From assembly GCF_000526215.1 (NCBI RefSeq), contig NZ_JAFQ01000004.1, positions 8,432,001 to 8,496,000 on the forward strand: 64,000 nucleotides of DNA. The letters are read 5' to 3'. Shown here one piece after another: positions 28,164 to 36,954 of the stretch; positions within the stretch are counted from its first letter, which is position 1; every line of letters starts with the position of its first letter. This stretch comes from Nocardia sp. BMG51109. Lineage in GTDB: Bacteria > Actinomycetota > Actinomycetes > Mycobacteriales > Mycobacteriaceae. A program made the translations under genes and the position numbers. The notes beneath the pieces were generated by a model that worked only from the letters and a program-made list of their open reading frames with translations, was not told the origin of the DNA and did not search any database.

Positions 28164-28763
28164 TCAGTGACCGAGGAGTTCGGCAGGATCGAAAGTGACA
28201 GGAAATACAGTGTCCGCCTTCACATCTGCCCTGAACTCCGATCCGGCCGCAACAATGGGCTCACACTTGTACGACGAGCCATCCAGCACGAACCTGTGAA
28301 CGCGTACGTCAGGACGCTGCTCTACGAGCCAGTACTGCGGGATTCCCAGCGCAGCGTACTCGTGGACCTTCCGAACTCGATCGGTACGCTCGCTTGCGCT
28401 GCCGGGTGACACCACCTCGACGGCAAGCAGCAACTCCGTACCGGGAATCAGCTTCGGCATCTCCTCAGCGAGAAGCGCGTGCGCCAGATCTGTCGACACC
28501 ACAACGACATCCGGTTTCCGCACACCGCTCGGGGTACTCACTTCCCACTCGCCCCCATCGAGTGCCACAACCAAACCGTCGCCGGCGGCTTCGACGATGC
28601 GCGCCAGACGCCGAGCGATCCAGTTGTGTCGATACCCCGCCGCCACCTCGATCAACCACCCGTCCTCGAGCTCGAAACCCTTGCCATCTTCCGGAAGATC
28701 ATGCAGATCGAGGACTGTGTACGGCCCGAAGTCAGCGATACAGGGCACCTTTTCCGCTGTCAT
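28164..28763 (-). CDS. Uma2-family (DUF820) PD-(D/E)XK nuclease-fold protein
   Basis: 199 residues. Uma2 pattern: YTVLDLHDLPEDGKGFELEDGWLIE, NWIARRLARIV, RKPDVVVVS (Asp of the PD motif), LAVEVVSPGSASERTDRVRK (Glu and basic residue), KVHEYAALGIPQYWLV. The nuclease-like core residues are present, but the cellular role of this widespread family is not established. ATG 28763 is preferred to 28787 because the extra residues are not conserved. It has no counterpart in the mycobacterial block and so is an insertion between the MFS gene and leuB. Confidence 0.85.
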   Translation of the reverse strand: MTAEKVPCIADFGPYTVLDLHDLPEDGKGFELEDGWLIEVAAGYRHNWIARRLARIVEAAGDGLVVALDGGEWEVSTPSGVRKPDVVVVSTDLAHALLAEEMPKLIPGTELLLAVEVVSPGSASERTDRVRKVHEYAALGIPQYWLVEQRPDVRVHRFVLDGSSYKCEPIVAAGSEFRADVKADTVFPVTFDPAELLGH

Positions 28764-28937
28764 GCCGCCTCCAGTTCGATAAGACACACAGACGAGGCCA
28801 CCCGACGGATGTAGTCCTCACACTAGACACATTAGACGTTAGTGCACCCATCGGGCGCAGGTCTTCACCCCTGGCTCAGACGGGAACATCCTGCAAAGAC
28901 TCTGCCGACGCGGCCGCATCTCCCTGGAATCGGCAGC

Positions 28938-30147: not shown

Positions 30148-31746
30148 TCAGCTCAGGTCGACCTGGGCCACCTTGGCGGCGCCGACGGTCTCGGCGATCG
30201 CGGCCTGCACGTCGGCGGGGACTTCCTTGTTGATACGTAGTACTACTGTCGCGCCTTCCTGATCGACATCCTGGCTCAGCTGTGCGGCCTGGATGTCGAC
30301 CCCGGCCTCGCCCAGCTTGGTGCCGATCCGGCCCAGCGCGCCGGGGCGGTCCTCGTAGTTCAGCACCGCCAGGTTCAGGCCCTCGGCGCGCATGTCGTAG
30401 TTGCGGCCGTTGATGTTGACGATCTTCTGCACCTGCCGCGGCTCGGTCAGGGTGCCGGCCACATTGCGGGTGCGGCCGTCGCCGAACACCGCGCGCAGGT
30501 CGACCAGGCTGCGATGCGACGGGCTCTCCGAGACCGTGGTGACCGACGCGTCGATGCCGCGGTCACGGGCCAGCTGCGGCGCGTTGACGAACGTGACCGG
30601 GTCCTCGACCAGCGCCGAGAAGATGCCGCGCAGCGCGGAAAGTTCCAGCACCGCAACGTCTTCGCTGGACAGCTCGCCGCGCACCACGACCTCCAGGCTC
30701 ACCGGCAGCTCGTTGGCCAGGGCGCCCAGCAGCACACCCTGCTTGCGCACGATCTCCAGCCACGGCGCGACCTCCTCGCCGACCGTGCCGCCGGTGACGT
30801 TCACCGCACCGGGCACGAATTCGCCGGCCAGCGCGAGCAGCACCGACTTGGCGACGTCGGTACCGGCCCGGTCCTGCGCCTCGGCCGTCGACGCGCCCAG
30901 GTGCGGGGTGACGACGACCTGCGGCAGCTCGAACAGCGGGCTGTCGGTGCACGGTTCGGTCTCGTACACGTCGATGCCGGCACCGCGGACGTGGCCGGAG
31001 GTGATGGCGTCGGCGAGGGCCTGCTCGTCGATGAGCCCGCCGCGGGCGGCGTTCACGATGATGACGCCCTGCTTGGTCAGCGCCAGCTTCTCCTTCGACA
31101 GCAGGCCCTTGGTCTCCGGGGTCTTCGGCAGGTGCACCGAGATCAGGTCGGCGCGCCGCAACAGCTCGTCCAGCGACACCAGCTCGATGCCCAGCTGCGC
31201 GGCGCGCGCGGCCGAGACGTAGGGGTCGTAAGCGATGATCTTGGTCTCGAACGCGGCCAGCCGCGCCGCGAACAGCTGCCCGATCCGGCCCAGGCCGACC
31301 ACGCCGACGGTCTTGCCGAAGATCTCGACACCGGTGAACTTGCTGCGCTTCCAGGTGTGCTCGCGCAGCGTGGCGTCGGCCGCGGGGATCTGGCGGGCGG
31401 CGGCGAGCAGCAGCGTGACGGCGTGCTCGGCGGCGGTGTGGATGTTGGAGGTCGGCGCGTTGACGACCATGACGCCGCGCTCGGTGGCCGCGGGGACCTC
31501 GACGTTGTCCAGGCCGACGCCGGCGCGGGCGACGATCTTCAGATTCTTCCCGGCCTCGAGCACCTCGGCGTCGACGGTCGTGGCCGAACGCACCAGCAGC
31601 GCGTCCGCCTCCGGCACGGCGGCCAGGAGCTCGGCTCGGTTGGGGCCGTCGACCCAGCGAACCTCGACACCGTCACCGAGCGCATCGACGGTCGACTGGG
31701 CGAGCTTGTCGGCGATGAGAACAACAGGACGGCCATGTTGGCTCAC
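30148..31746 (-). CDS. serA: D-3-phosphoglycerate dehydrogenase
   Basis: 532 residues, first enzyme of serine synthesis. Substrate and NAD domains ([51 protein letters not shown]), then the intervening regulatory domain typical of mycobacterial SerA, then a C-terminal ACT domain ([20 protein letters not shown]). The start is GTG 31746, with AGGAG about ten bases upstream. The long, ACT-containing form is normally feedback-inhibited by serine. Confidence 0.96.
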
Positions 31747-31847
31747 TGTGGGGCACTCCTGAGAAAAGTGGGATCGGCATTTACCGCGGCCCAGCTTAAT
31801 GGCCCCGGTTCGAGCGCGGGGTACCGGCCGGTAGTCATGCGTCCCGG

Positions 31848-33872
31848 CTATCCGGCAAGCACCCCGCCGAACCGCTCGTCCTCCGACCCGCGCATGGCGT
31901 ACACCCGGGCGAGGAAGTCACGGTGCGCCCGCAACGTCGAATCGAGCAGTTCGCGCCAGGTCCGGCGGTCGATCCGGGCGTCGCTGTCCAGCGACGACAG
32001 CGAGGCCGGATGCAGCTTGTCGATGTGGTCGACGATGAACGTCAGCCGCCGGCGCGGGAACTGGGTACCGATGCTCGGGTTGTCGTCGAGGAAGGTGTCG
32101 AGCGCGTACAGGTAGTTGACGGCGCGGTTGTACTCCTCGTCGGTGAGGTGGTAGTCCATCCGCTTGATCTCCACGATCCACAGCTCGCCGGCGTCGTGCA
32201 GCAGCACGAAATCCGGTTCGCGCTTCTCGCTGCCGATCGAGGACGTGATCAGGGTGACCCCGAACTTCTGCGCGTACCAGCGCTCGAAGCTGGCCCGCAC
32301 GCGCTTGAGCGATTCGTTCATCCCGAGCGGCGTCCACTCCGGGGCCAGCAGCCACGGCGCCCGCTCGATCAGCTCCTGGAACGGCCGCTCCAGCGAGCGG
32401 CGGTCGTCGATCAGCGTGCTCAGCCGGTCCACCACGGCGACCCGCTCGCTGGCGATCTGGCCCAGCGAGTAGATCTCGGCCACCCGGGCCCGCTCGAACA
32501 GCGCCACCACCACGTCCAGCTGCGGATCGGCGTCGTCGGCGATCTCCTTCAACGTCTCCAGCAGGCTGCGCTGCGGGCCCAGCGACAGCGCCAGCCGCAC
32601 AATGCTTTCCACATATCCGGCCTCTTCCAGGGCGGCACGGTCCTTGTTCGCCACCAGGATTCGGGCGGCATCGACCACCGCGTCCCGAAACATGCTGTCG
32701 CCGGGGGCGATCGATTCCAGCACGTCGTACAGGCGGGACTTCTCCACGAACTCGGTCCAGACCCGCCGCCGGATCGACCGCTCGCCCCTCCGGCCGATCT
32801 GCTTGATCAGATCGTGGCCCCAGACGGCCAGCGCCGCGCCGCGGGGCGAATTCCACATGATGTCCTGGCGGTCGGAGCGGACCAGGTCCTCGTCCTCGTC
32901 GAGCCAGTCCACGTGGATGGCCCCGACCAGGTACGAGCGCAACTTGAACTCGCCGGTGAACCGGTCGGAGATGCCGAAGTCCCGGGTCTGCGCGACGATC
33001 TTGCCACGCGCGTAGATCCGCACGCCGGCCATCGCCTCGTCCCGGTAGGGGTGCTTGGAGTAGGCGATCCACCCCGACACCGGCAGCGTCTGGCGGCCGA
33101 GGCGGACGGGCCTGCGCACCACGTCGACCCGGGTCTCCTCCATCACGTCGATCGGCAGATCGCTGAGGATGAAGCTCTCCCCGGCGACCAGGCCGTTGTG
33201 CACCTCGACCCGCCAGTCCGGGCGTTCGATGCCGAATCGCGCCGCCAGCTGCCGATTCAGCTCCGGCCCCGAGTTCACCCGCTTGCGGATGAAGTCCCGC
33301 AGGATGACCGTGGTGCCCCGGTCCGGGCTCGTAGTGCCGTCGCGCGCACCGATCTTCGGGTAGTAGTCGCTCTCGGTGTCGGAGAGCATGTCGTAGAGAT
33401 CCATCACGATGTGCGACACCGGCCAGCCCTCGGCCGCACGGTCGCCGGGCCCGCTGCCCGCGGAGATCACCTCGATGGTCCGGCAGATGCCGAAGGCCGC
33501 CAGCTTCCCGATCCCCTTGCGCCCCATGACCGGTCGCCCGCGTTCGCGGGACAGATCCGAGCCGGTGCGCTGCCGGCGATCCGAGCCGACCATCAGATAG
33601 TGCTCGTTCACCTCGGCGGCGGTCATGCCGTGGCCGTTGTCGGTGACGACGATCTCGAACTGCGGTTCCTCGGCGGCCCGCACGGTGCCCGCCAGCGTGA
33701 CGCCCCAGGGCAGGGTCACTGCCACCTCGGTGGCGTCGGCGTCGTAGGAGTTGGCGATGAGTTCGGCCAGAACCGCCGAAACTCGGTCGTAGAGTTTGAT
33801 TCCCAGTTTGTCGATGGCCAGCCGACTGATCCGCATCGTGTACTTGTGACCGGCCTGCACGTCGCTGTACAT
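31848..33872 (-). CDS. GHKL-type ATPase fused to a Shedu-like PD-(D/E)XK nuclease domain; candidate defence protein
   Basis: 674 residues, not a housekeeping family. N-terminus: GHKL (Hsp90/MutL/MORC-type) ATP-binding fold, with N box ELIANSYDADATEV (Glu37, Asn41), G1 box DNGHGM (78-83) and G2 box GRKGIGK (117-123). The middle (about 180-490) follows the transducer-like and helical region of paraMORC-type ATPases. C-terminus: FQELIERAPWLL at 498, then EPDF (552-555) and WIVEIKR with Glu568 and Lys570, the layout of the PD-(D/E)XK domain in Shedu/DUF4263 nucleases. It is alone: serA lies 101 bases downstream, the csp gene upstream on the same strand. GC content looks like the neighbours, so transfer is not obvious from composition. 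The start is uncertain by a few codons (ATG 33872, MYSDVQAGHKYTMRISR). Function is inferred from domains only. Confidence 0.75.
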   Translation of the reverse strand: MYSDVQAGHKYTMRISRLAIDKLGIKLYDRVSAVLAELIANSYDADATEVAVTLPWGVTLAGTVRAAEEPQFEIVVTDNGHGMTAAEVNEHYLMVGSDRRQRTGSDLSRERGRPVMGRKGIGKLAAFGICRTIEVISAGSGPGDRAAEGWPVSHIVMDLYDMLSDTESDYYPKIGARDGTTSPDRGTTVILRDFIRKRVNSGPELNRQLAARFGIERPDWRVEVHNGLVAGESFILSDLPIDVMEETRVDVVRRPVRLGRQTLPVSGWIAYSKHPYRDEAMAGVRIYARGKIVAQTRDFGISDRFTGEFKLRSYLVGAIHVDWLDEDEDLVRSDRQDIMWNSPRGAALAVWGHDLIKQIGRRGERSIRRRVWTEFVEKSRLYDVLESIAPGDSMFRDAVVDAARILVANKDRAALEEAGYVESIVRLALSLGPQRSLLETLKEIADDADPQLDVVVALFERARVAEIYSLGQIASERVAVVDRLSTLIDDRRSLERPFQELIERAPWLLAPEWTPLGMNESLKRVRASFERWYAQKFGVTLITSSIGSEKREPDFVLLHDAGELWIVEIKRMDYHLTDEEYNRAVNYLYALDTFLDDNPSIGTQFPRRRLTFIVDHIDKLHPASLSSLDSDARIDRRTWRELLDSTLRAHRDFLARVYAMRGSEDERFGGVLAG

Positions 33873-34049
33873 GGTTCGGGTTCTCCCGGTCCCCGTCGGG
33901 CAGCCGCCGTTCAGCTACCGCTGCCACCATCGTTCACGGCCCTATCGACCAGGGGCTGAACGGAAAACGACCAGGTCGTCACGACCAGGTCCCGGTGTTT
34001 GCTGCCAGTCTCGGAACGGTTACCGACCGGTCCCGACCCGGAGACGCAC

Positions 34050-34100: not shown

Positions 34101-34307
34101 TCACGCGATCACGCGGACGCCCTGGGCCTGCGGGCCCTTCTGGCCCTGGCCGATCTCGAACTCCACACGCTGACCTTCATCGAGGGAACGGAAGCCCGTC
34201 CCGGCCACAGCCGAGTAGTGCACGAACACGTCGGGACCACCGTTGTCCTGCGCGATGAACCCGAAGCCCTTCTCGCTGTTGAACCACTTCACTACGCCTT
34301 GCGCCAT
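34101..34307 (-). CDS. Cold-shock protein (CspA family)
   Basis: 68-residue cold-shock domain: [20 protein letters not shown] with RNP1 (KGFGFI) and RNP2-type DVFVHYSAV. These proteins bind single-stranded RNA/DNA and melt mRNA secondary structure. RBS AGAAGG lies just before the ATG. The unit is monocistronic: a long 5' leader upstream and a hairpin downstream. Confidence 0.95.
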
Positions 34308-34619
34308 TTCATACCTTCTGTTGACGAGCCGAGCCGGCCAATCCATACGGCAGACCCGGTCTCAACAGTCCACACTGCCACGCGCGGTCGCGGATTCGCC
34401 ACTGTGATCGCGCTCGGGCAGGGGGTTGCGGGTGGTCTGCTACCAATCTTGTTATCCCACAGTGATTATCGTAGTTATCGTACCGTTATAGCGCATCTTC
34501 GGGCTGGGCATGGATCAGGGCCGGCGACATACCATGCTCCGTACGATATGGGTCCGGCCCCGAACGGAGAACCGTCCGGGGCCGGACCCAGGGGCTGCTC
34601 ACCCCGCCGTCGTACGAGG
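34308..34619 (-). promoter_or_regulatory. 5' region of the first csp gene, with hairpin of the upstream peptide gene
   Basis: No further gene seen in this 312-base stretch. Its far end is AT-rich for this genome (GATTATCGTAGTTATCGTAC at about 34461-34480), a likely promoter area that would give a leader of about 150 bases, as is usual for cold-shock mRNAs. The bases just before the ATG (GGCTCGGCTCG, then AGAAGGTATGA) are shared with the second csp gene. Confidence 0.4.
34550..34589 (-). terminator. Hairpin after the 38-residue peptide gene
   Basis: Perfect 13-base arms GGGTCCGGCCCCG (34550-34562) and CGGGGCCGGACCC (34577-34589), 14-base loop, about 30 bases beyond the stop of the peptide gene. 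No U run. Confidence 0.65.
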
Positions 34620-34811: not shown

Positions 34812-34871
34812 GCCGCATTAGCTGAAAAGTGACTCCCGCAACACCATTAGGGGAGTGTGGGCCAGGCCACA

Positions 34872-35084
34872 CTACCGGTGCCGGAGCACGCGCACGCCCT
34901 TGGCCTCGGGTCCCGCCTTGGCGCGACGGATCTCGAACTCCACCCGCTCGCCCTCCGCCAGCGACCGGAAGCCCGAACCCTCGACCTCGGTGTAGTCGAC
35001 GAAGACATCCGGGCCGCCGCCGTCGGCGGTGATGAAACCGAACCCCTTCTCACTGTCGAACCACTTGACCGTGCCGTGCGCCAT
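34872..35084 (-). CDS. Cold-shock protein (CspA family), second copy
   Basis: 70-residue cold-shock domain ([39 protein letters not shown]). It differs from the first copy at roughly a third of positions, and the conserved DVFVH histidine is Asp here. Its leader (GGCTCGGCTCG then AGAAGGTATGA) begins immediately after the iolD stop at 35116, so it may be read from the inositol operon as well as on its own. A small seven-base hairpin AGTGTGG/CCACACT overlaps its stop. Confidence 0.92.
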   Translation of the reverse strand: MAHGTVKWFDSEKGFGFITADGGGPDVFVDYTEVEGSGFRSLAEGERVEFEIRRAKAGPEAKGVRVLRHR

Positions 35085-35115
35085 CTCTCATACCTTCTCG
35101 CCTGCGAGCCGAGCC

Positions 35116-36954
35116 TCACCGGGTGATCCGCACCTGGCCGGGCTTGGCAGCATCGTAGGCCGCGCGGCCGGACAGGTGCGCGGGGACACCGACCTCCCAC
35201 CAGGCGCCGGATTCGGTCCAGGTCGACGGCTGGGTGCGCACGACCACCACGGCGGGGCGCGACTCGGCCAGCGCCGCGGCCCGCGCACCCGCGTAGGCCG
35301 CCCGGAACTCGGCCACGTCGGCGGCGGTGAACACGGAACAGCCCAGCGCCCGGGCATGGGCGGCGAAATCCACCCGGGGCGGTTCGGCGTGGTTGGAGCG
35401 GCACTGGCCGTAGAAGTTGTTGAAGGCGTTGCCGCCCTGATCCTGCTGCAACCGGGCGATGACCGCGTAACCCTCGTTGTCGCACACGACCGCCACCAGC
35501 GGGTGACCGGCGAACGCCGCCGAGTACAGCTCGGAGTTGAGCATCAGGTAGGAGCCGTCGCCGAGCATGGTGGTGACCAGGCCGCGGCGGTGCGCCATCG
35601 CCGCGCCCCACGCGCCGGCCACCTCGTATCCCATGCAGGAGAATCCGTATTCGACGTCCATGGTCGGCTCGCCGCCCACCGCGCGCCAACCGCCGACGAG
35701 CTCGCCGGGCAGGCCGCCGGATGCCGCCATCACGTAGTCGGTGGGTTCGCTGAGATCGTTGACGGCGCCGACGATCTGGGCATAGCTGGGAATTCCTCCC
35801 TCCGGGGCGCGCAGCTTGGTGATGTAGGCGTCCCATTCGCGGCGCACATCGGCCGCGCGGGAACTCCACGACGGATCCGCCCGCCAGTCGGCCAGCCGCG
35901 GTGCCAGATCCTCCAGTGCCGCACCGGCATCGGCGACCACATCGAGCGCGCGGTGCTTGACGGCGTCGAAGCGGGCGGTATTGACGGAGACCAGCCGGAC
36001 ACCGGGCGTGAATACCGTCCAGGACGCGGTCGTGAAGTCCTGCAACCGGGTTCCCACGGCGAAAATCAGATCCGCCTCGGCGGCAAGGGCATTCGCCGAG
36101 GCCGAGCCGGTGATGCCCAGGGGCCCGGCGTACAGCGGGTGATCGTGCGGAATCAGGGTGCGGCCGGCCGTGGTCTCGGCGACCGGGATGCCGTGCCGCT
36201 GCGCCAGTTCCAGCGCCCGCATACCGGCGCCCGAGTAGCGCACTCCCCCGCCCAGCACCAGCAGCGGCCGATGCGCCGCGCGCAGAGCGCGGGCCGCCTC
36301 CGCGAGCACGTCGCGATCGGGCCGCGGCCGGGCGATCCGATGCACGACCGGATCGAAGAGCGCGGCCGGGAAATCGCTGGTCTCGGCCTGCACGTCCTGC
36401 GGCAGCGCCAGCGTCACCGGGCCCACGTCGGCCGGGTCGGTCAGCACCCGCGCCACCTGCGGCAGGGTCGCCATCAGCTGCTCGGGCCGGGTGATGCGGT
36501 CGAAGTAGCGGCTGACCGGGCGAAAGGCGTCGTTCGCCGTCACCGTCGGATCGCCGAAGTTCTCCACCTGCTGCAGAACCGGGTCGGGGGCACGACCGAC
36601 GAACGTGTCGGCCGGAAGCAACAGCAGCGGAAGGCGATCGGCGTGCGCGACACCGGCCGCCGTCACCATGTTCAGCGCACCGGGACCGATGGACGAGGTC
36701 GCCGCCCCCACCTGCCGCCGGTGCGTGGCCTTCGCCAGCCCGACCGCAGCCAGCGCCATGCCCTGCTCGGTGTGCCCGCGCCACACCGGAACCACATCGC
36801 GCCGTTCCTCCAGCGCGGTCCCCATCCCGAGCACGTTGCCGTGCCCGAAAATCGCGAAAACCGCCGGGAACAGCGGGACCTCACGACCGTCCAGCGTCTC
36901 CGAATGCTGAGCGATCATCCAGGCGACGAGCGCTTGTGCGGTGGTCAGTTTCAT
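35116..36954 (-). CDS. iolD: 3D-(3,5/4)-trihydroxycyclohexane-1,2-dione acylhydrolase
   Basis: 612-residue ThDP-dependent enzyme of myo-inositol breakdown that opens the ring of the trihydroxycyclohexanedione. It begins MKLTTAQALVAWMIAQHSET; the ThDP-activating Glu is in WRGHTEQGMALAAVG, and the ThDP/Mg motif is TMLGDGSYLMLNSELYSAAF. FGHGNVLGMGTALEE and CDNEGYAVIARLQ also match IolD. RBS AAGGGG precedes ATG 36954. It is the last catabolic gene of an operon starting at 41170. Confidence 0.92.
   Translation of the reverse strand: MKLTTAQALVAWMIAQHSETLDGREVPLFPAVFAIFGHGNVLGMGTALEERRDVVPVWRGHTEQGMALAAVGLAKATHRRQVGAATSSIGPGALNMVTAAGVAHADRLPLLLLPADTFVGRAPDPVLQQVENFGDPTVTANDAFRPVSRYFDRITRPEQLMATLPQVARVLTDPADVGPVTLALPQDVQAETSDFPAALFDPVVHRIARPRPDRDVLAEAARALRAAHRPLLVLGGGVRYSGAGMRALELAQRHGIPVAETTAGRTLIPHDHPLYAGPLGITGSASANALAAEADLIFAVGTRLQDFTTASWTVFTPGVRLVSVNTARFDAVKHRALDVVADAGAALEDLAPRLADWRADPSWSSRAADVRREWDAYITKLRAPEGGIPSYAQIVGAVNDLSEPTDYVMAASGGLPGELVGGWRAVGGEPTMDVEYGFSCMGYEVAGAWGAAMAHRRGLVTTMLGDGSYLMLNSELYSAAFAGHPLVAVVCDNEGYAVIARLQQDQGGNAFNNFYGQCRSNHAEPPRVDFAAHARALGCSVFTAADVAEFRAAYAGARAAALAESRPAVVVVRTQPSTWTESGAWWEVGVPAHLSGRAAYDAAKPGQVRITR

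Follow-up and report, generated by a model that had tools for sequence, protein, structure and literature searches.

The window analyzed here, a 64,000-nucleotide stretch from Nocardia sp. BMG51109, carries on its reverse strand a gene for a 674-residue protein that lies between serA and a cold-shock-protein gene (csp).

31848..33872 (minus strand): solitary gene for a GHKL-S5 ATPase joined to a PD-(D/E)XK-type nuclease, paraMORC3- or BbrUII/HgiDII-like, 674 aa
32766..33872 (minus strand): GHKL ATPase and transducer (S5) module of MORC/Hsp90-like fold, residues 1–369
32403..32765 (minus strand): helical connector from predicted secondary structure, residues 370–490, limits approximate
31893..32402 (minus strand): predicted PD-(D/E)XK nuclease domain, residues 491–660, with E495, Q499, W507, D554, E568, and K570
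30148..31746 (minus strand): serA (phosphoglycerate dehydrogenase), the conserved flank 101 bp downstream; TIGR01327, 612.1 bits, cut-off 454
34101..34304 (minus strand): csp, conserved upstream flank; NF049933, 110.7 bits against a cut-off of 120, hence assigned at the family level only
35116..36954 (minus strand): iolD, conserved upstream flank; TIGR04377, 792.7 bits, cut-off 715
31838..34037 (no strand): approximate span of the DNA missing at the empty site of locus L084, where 33 bases (73 in L082) lie between the flanking blocks

The open reading frame at 31848..33872 exists as described in a sequence-only reading of the window, which had proposed a stand-alone GHKL ATPase fused to a Shedu-like nuclease, and it has strong coding character (GC of 0.67/0.44/0.93 by codon position). 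The GHKL boxes are also where that reading had placed them: Pfam HATPase_c_3 matches residues 32–141 (3.2e-19), and the seven box residues E37, N41, D78, G80, G82, G120, and G122 are kept in 27 of the 27 Nocardia copies examined. Modeling supports a MORC-like ATPase as the N-terminal half, and a search with the whole protein returns weak TRAP1 (Hsp90) matches with E values of 0.086 and worse. The S5 motif of MORC proper, GhXhhpXXRhl, is departed from at residues 283–293, which by eye read GVRIYARGKIV, with K for R and A in the polar place.

The C-terminal part harbors both the PD…EIK motif and the upstream FQELIERAPWLL helix on which the proposal of a nuclease had been based. In a 42-row family alignment that reaches down to 36% identity, E495, Q499, P506, W507, P553, D554, E568, and K570 are invariant, and the ATP-binding and nuclease residues in general are invariant or nearly so. 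The model secondary structure of the C-terminus (helix 495–504, strands 556–560 and 563–569, helix 578–597, and strand 607–613) fits a restriction-enzyme fold as a prediction at the motif level, the structural rows spanning residues 1–369; no meaningful match emerged when solved structures were searched with a profile of the nuclease domain. A distance of 533 residues separates the glutamate of the ATPase from the lysine of the nuclease. A single polypeptide combines a MORC-like ATPase with an intact PD-(D/E)XK-type motif, probably for use in DNA conflict.

The top named profile is NCBIfam NF050001, which describes the BbrUII/HgiDII restriction enzymes, with 243.7 bits against a curated cut-off of 550. 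It aligns to the 674-residue protein in two stretches (model positions 1–200 and 244–597 of 659), whereas the relatives L024, L027, and L028 cover model positions 1–649/650 in one. PADLOC calls the protein REase_II (3.6e-33). The Shedu-like character claimed for the C-terminus shows weakly across the family, 38 of whose 42 members match SduA_C at E ≤ 0.1 (best 2.7e-5), and less so in the protein itself, whose own match (residues 494–580, 15.4 bits, E 0.022) is below the Pfam cut-off of 27. Profile scores place it nearer to the BbrUII/HgiDII restriction enzymes than to SduA_C.

HgiDII and BbrUII cut the SalI site. The Nocardia protein shares with this group an N-terminal GHKL ATPase, identical catalytic residues in the same order, and homology over most of its length. 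The loci that exceed the NF050001 cut-off (L049 and L050) have an adjacent C5 methylase; in contrast, the Nocardia protein is 26% identical to that of L049, and no methylase lies beside its gene.

Two published descriptions concern this architecture, and the fusion, which is not a new idea, is already contained in both. ParaMORC3 proteins are described as GHKL and S5 domains followed by a restriction-fold nuclease with an E-D-ExK motif; paraMORCs occur mostly in restriction-modification operons, and a standalone paraMORC3 subset is noted, mainly in proteobacteria and Bacteroidetes (Iyer, Abhiman and Aravind 2008, PMC2292703). The Nocardia protein agrees with this description in its GHKL domain with conserved ATP motifs, its S5/transducer domain, and, at the motif level, its C-terminal E-D-ExK; the Nocardia clade, the methylase loss, and the chromosomal site are additions to it. 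VcSduA of Vibrio cholerae, reported in 2025 and filed under Shedu type I-D, protects against phages, and E27A and K557A each abolish defense, such that both active sites are needed, while host viability is kept; control of the nuclease by the ATPase is a hypothesis already published for this protein (PMC12137116). VcSduA, like the Nocardia protein, is the product of a single gene with an N-terminal GHKL domain and a C-terminal PD-(D/E)XK domain (DUF4263), and its E27–K557 spacing of 530 compares with 533. The two are likened here by description, and SduA_C is below cut-off in the Nocardia protein. The GHKL-nuclease fusion, its architecture, and its anti-phage role are therefore already published, and the new part is the evolutionary contrast set out below.

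A scan of 40 loci (29 from Nocardia and 11 others) reveals a C5 methylase gene adjoining the nuclease gene in all 11 loci outside the genus. It is divergent and upstream in L023, L024, and L040, and downstream, touching or overlapping, in L027, L028, L030, L032, L035, and L037 (Pfam PF00145 in both arrangements); the methylases of L031 and L033 were found by tblastn. Five relatives found by profile (L049, L050, L051, L052, and L054) have a C5 methylase as well. Outside Nocardia, identities to the Nocardia protein are 55–66% among the relatives listed. Three Streptomyces proteins are 58–60% identical to it, and the linked methylases of three Streptomyces species share 69–82% identity with each other. 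A class-wide genome search at 1e-30 matched 5 of 394 genomes, two of which are Nocardia. On the Rhodospirillales contig (L028:9965-16328), two GHKL-nuclease genes of the family face each other around one C5 methylase.

The family also matches 21 plasmid records and one of 50,697 phage records. Of the 11 plasmids inspected from these 21, seven (L100–L103 and L108–L110) have a C5 methylase gene adjoining the match, and a methylase is listed under the match for plasmids H2, H3, and H15. For L104, L105, L106, and L107, no methylase is annotated in the stretch shown, a soft absence, as the PLSDB gene tables are incomplete. L104 encodes a relative that passes the SduA_C cut-off (28.2 against 27) and is 26% identical to the Nocardia protein. 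In the phage record, Escherichia phage PhiR44_1, a gene annotated ParaMORC3 adjoins a Dcm (C5 methylase) gene (L099:3992-7040). This phage is presumably P2-like, and P2-like phages often hold defense cargo.

None of the 29 Nocardia loci has a C5 methylase adjacent to the gene, some flanks being short (e.g., 650 bases upstream in L004). With 13 methylase queries at 1e-3, tblastn finds a C5 methylase in two of these loci (L005 and L013), about 6 kb off and at 29–44% identity. Eight further carrier loci (L113–L120), partly of the same species, yield no methylase beyond one discounted match, a possible remnant in L117. This match (77 residues, 3.5e-4) lies on the strand opposite to the GHKL gene, which it overlaps, and is taken as an artifact, because the query residues concerned, 1–73 of the L051 open reading frame, lie ahead of the methylase domain (92–424) and are also partly antisense to the GHKL gene of L051 itself. 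The Streptomyces partner methylase, searched against 148 Nocardia genomes, has matches in 93 at 1e-10, with no close ortholog among the 148 (best 37% near full length and 43% over part). A constant partner of another kind was likewise sought in 27 Nocardia loci with a rough gene caller, and no gene is always adjacent; the recurring families, namely csp (20 loci), a 269-aa gene (17 loci), and serA, occur on either side at varying distance.

The Nocardia gene is restriction-enzyme-like and has neither a nearby nor an orthologous methylase, which likens it to the solitary restriction endonucleases surveyed by Ershova et al. (2012, PMC3488263). That survey lists 272 such genes; for 57 of them a distant methylase is predicted, 99 are probably fragments, and orphan methylases are noted as able to protect. 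In contrast to the survey, the state described here is common to a whole Nocardia clade, represented by the window and by 26 full-length loci, each from a record of its own. The main text of the survey (PMC3488263) does not mention Nocardia, HgiDII, or BbrUII, and no report of a methylase-less Nocardia clade was found in the literature, as judged from titles and the openings of abstracts.

The alternative that survives best is a restriction-modification system that has been split, in which sites lacking methylation would be cut by the nuclease, and the chromosome would be protected by a methylase encoded elsewhere, most likely a widespread Dcm-like C5 enzyme with a Vsr-like neighbor. The separated systems predicted by Ershova et al. 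provide a precedent, a C5 methylase match of some kind is present in 148 of 148 Nocardia genomes searched, and 15 of 41 carriers, the window's genome included, have a single PF00145 match among the matches listed (a hand count, with carrier G088 outside the sample). The one C5 methylase match of the window's genome, at C4:1993222, is a 385-aa Dcm-like open reading frame (L111:2569-3726), near which a 154-aa open reading frame gives a Vsr-like match. However, this methylase resembles the Streptomyces partner in its catalytic half only (35% over residues 7–172). Matches of the same kind (model positions 2–165) occur, among the matches listed, in many Nocardia genomes, carriers and non-carriers, so there is no co-occurrence with the nuclease gene. 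A split system is on this evidence rather unlikely. A version that relies on an N6/N4 methylase was rejected, as matches (weak ones included) show no association with the gene (19 of 41 carriers against 48 of 107 non-carriers); PF01555 methylases are absent from the window's genome.

Three further observations concern methylation in the genus. Avoidance of the SalI-type site was considered and rejected, the observed/expected ratio being 1.00 for carrier loci (595 kb) and 1.03 for non-carrier loci (183 kb), although the specificity of the Nocardia protein may differ from the SalI type, which gives these ratios little weight. The Dcm/Vsr-like pair of the window's genome is of a kind widespread in Nocardia, with no nuclease gene recognized nearby. 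One carrier has a second, distant GHKL-nuclease (28–30% identity; L112, G102:C2:594000-604000), separated from the first by about 34 kb and accompanied by a nearby C5 methylase match, which suggests that the genus is not hostile to a nuclease-methylase pair.

The gene is present in 42 of 150 Nocardia genomes and has no match in the other 108. This distribution shows an accessory and patchy gene. Near-full-length matches account for 36 of the 42, two of them with a stop codon in the match, and the remaining six are broken or partial, in G141 perhaps owing to a contig edge. The six damaged matches and the two with stop codons indicate that the gene is often lost or damaged, which counts against the explanation favored below.

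The sequence-only reading had also placed the gene exactly where the gene order shared with mycobacteria ends. Such an end is not confirmed within Nocardia, where the order continues on both sides: csp, iolD, an ABC transporter, a binding protein, and iolE upstream, and serA, leuB, and gltX downstream. In 29 of 42 carriers the gene shares its strand with serA and lies upstream of it by no more than 6 kb, and in 3 it is far from serA; the other 10 are undecided, nine having the gene on another contig than serA and one having no serA row. The serA region offers two slots, one on either side of csp, and L019–L021 share a different site. In four of 15 non-carrier regions, the blocks on the serA side and the csp side are less than 200 bases apart (33 in L084, 73 in L082, 139 in L092, and 188 in L090). 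The blocks that match the window end at 31837 in L084 and 31802 in L082, and they resume at 34038 and 34032, respectively. Other non-carriers hold longer, unrelated DNA at the site (e.g., about 1.25 kb in L080), L088 retains a decayed remnant, and the L081 region is too short to tell. The continuing gene order and the nearly joined flanks of non-carriers identify an accessory gene in a conserved neighborhood. A resident but dispensable gene, subject to loss and some relocation, fits a defense gene.

Selective constraint was assessed in 27 Nocardia copies, i.e., 26 of the 29 loci and the window, with L029, L036, and L039 (broken or partial) left out; L013, one of the 27, has an internal stop. 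All 20 motif residues checked, with E495, D554, E568, and K570 among them, are unchanged in 27 of 27 copies. The median uncorrected pN/pS is 0.22, equal to that of serA (231 pairs). The protein changes faster than SerA (median dN 0.109 against 0.074), which also counts against the explanation favored below. Distances of the two genes are correlated (Mantel r 0.66, 0 of 5000 permutations, n = 22).

These values bear on the possibility that the gene is a relic or has been repurposed, its nuclease being harmless to the cell, either inactive without its methylase or put to some other use on DNA, with drift removing the gene from the genus. The 108 genomes without a match, the six carriers with pieces, and the L088 remnant are in keeping with such drift, and PaeR7I, as cited by Ershova et al. 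(PMC3488263), is a nuclease that does not restrict without its methylase. Between 11 Nocardia rows and 23 other rows from the actinobacterial side there are four fixed differences at the 90% level (P126A, A321V, V473I, and T493S, with the other residue first), of which P126A, just after the ATP-lid motif, could be read in the same sense. However, invariant motifs and a pN/pS equal to that of serA, in a count from which broken copies are excluded, are not expected of a relic, and this alternative is unlikely.

The direction of change is addressed by the phylogeny. A maximum-likelihood tree built from 33 rows places the six Nocardia rows as the sister of Streptomyces (93/96, not starred), and both are inside a 19-row clade (100/100) whose 13 non-Nocardia rows represent 12 loci, each with a methylase. 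Relatives at 60–66% identity include the proteins P0061–P0074. A further protein, P0060, is 66% identical to the Nocardia protein and belongs to the sister group of Nocardia (0.84, FastTree). Its N-terminal 245 residues were searched in six frames against 120 loci (1.32 Mb), and all matches to E 0.02 are the antisense strand of C5 methylase genes beside family members: L051 and L097 (one genome), L040, L027, L023, L031, L037, and L035, from 5e-15 (with composition correction) to 0.02. An earlier search had matched four of five divergent methylase regions, the L024 methylase being unmatched; L052, matched there, is not listed in the 120-locus search. With the same query, no match below 0.2 came from three upstream stretches of Nocardia. 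As the P0060 N-terminus reads as the antisense of C5 methylase genes, its contig evidently carries a divergent methylase. More generally, false N-terminal extensions of this type, being antisense readings, can reveal neighbors when the contig is missing.

With a methylase placed at P0060, the data are read most simply as a loss that occurred on the Nocardia stem, and the stand-alone state looks like a derived one in the Nocardia clade. The nearest non-Nocardia relatives whose neighbors are seen or deduced belong to two-gene systems, in which they form the nuclease part and a C5 methylase the other. A primary single-gene Shedu type I-D defense gene, solitary from the start and free of a restriction-modification past, is improbable: it would account for the architecture and spacing shared with VcSduA, the weak SduA_C matches of the family, and the plasmid relatives L104 (above the SduA_C cut-off) and L105 with no methylase gene in the stretch shown, but the Nocardia branch lies within a group of methylase-linked relatives, a methylase is evidently present in its nearest outgroup, and the Nocardia protein is far less similar to that of L104 than to the other non-Nocardia relatives listed (26% against 55–66%). 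The sequence-only reading was thus right that the gene stands alone in the Nocardia loci seen, while its single-gene Shedu-type system finds no support in the methylase-linked relatives or the BbrUII/HgiDII score.

The explanation favored here, with a probability of roughly 0.55, is that the protein derives from the nuclease half of a paraMORC3/BbrUII-like restriction-modification system, that the C5 methylase of this system disappeared on the branch leading to one Nocardia clade, and that the gene has been kept for a solitary anti-phage nuclease. Direct observation covers the family assignment, the catalytic motifs, the presence of a methylase next to the examined relatives outside Nocardia, the lack of one beside the Nocardia gene, and the selective constraint. 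Action as a solitary anti-phage nuclease is the most likely role to be proposed from the sequence data.

Mechanistically, a restriction-modification nuclease with a C5-cytosine methylase partner would have lost that partner on the Nocardia stem. ATP binding may close the protein, as a dimer, into a clamp around DNA in the manner of MORC and MutL proteins, and the engaged clamp alone would let the C-terminal PD-(D/E)XK domain cut. Foreign and self DNA would then be told apart by a cue other than the cognate methyl mark, as the single-gene VcSduA would also need. Self-tolerance could come from the Dcm-like methylase of the window's genome, which does not track the nuclease gene, or, alternatively, be decided by the ATPase gate and not by methylation. 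Tentatively, and with odds against it, a methylation-guarded restriction enzyme may have become a methylation-free immune nuclease on the Nocardia stem with almost no sequence change, the sampled rows having four fixed differences of which one adjoins the ATP lid, and discrimination between self and non-self would have passed from DNA modification to the ATPase clamp. If true, this would show how restriction-modification can lead naturally to Shedu-like immunity conferred by a single gene.

Similar nucleases with and without a protecting methylase, both with active sites that appear intact, form a pair for asking by what means a GHKL-gated nuclease spares the chromosome of its own cell. How self-DNA is spared in the methylase-less Nocardia carriers is a testable question raised by the contrast with the methylase-linked relatives. 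The comparison also links three names, BbrUII/HgiDII restriction enzymes, paraMORC3, and type I-D Shedu, which are kept apart by the libraries searched.

Several minor features surround the gene. A candidate RNA element at 34107–34330, conserved in other Nocardia, is the csp gene, and Rfam at the gathering threshold yields two tRNAs only in the whole window. The longest open reading frame of this part, 34847–36784 (645 aa), has no family match and was discarded in favor of iolD, which occupies another frame. At 34884–35087, 777 bases from csp, lies a stretch with 73% DNA identity to csp. Such csp-like stretches occur near the GHKL gene in many Nocardia, with the gene on either side in different species. 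Between the two cold-shock stretches of the window, at 34549–34590, is a near-perfect inverted repeat with 19-base arms and a 4-base loop, perhaps a terminator. Finally, a gene for a putative nuclease of the Uma2 type (28164–28787; PF05685, 2.1e-20) is found between leuB and gltX.
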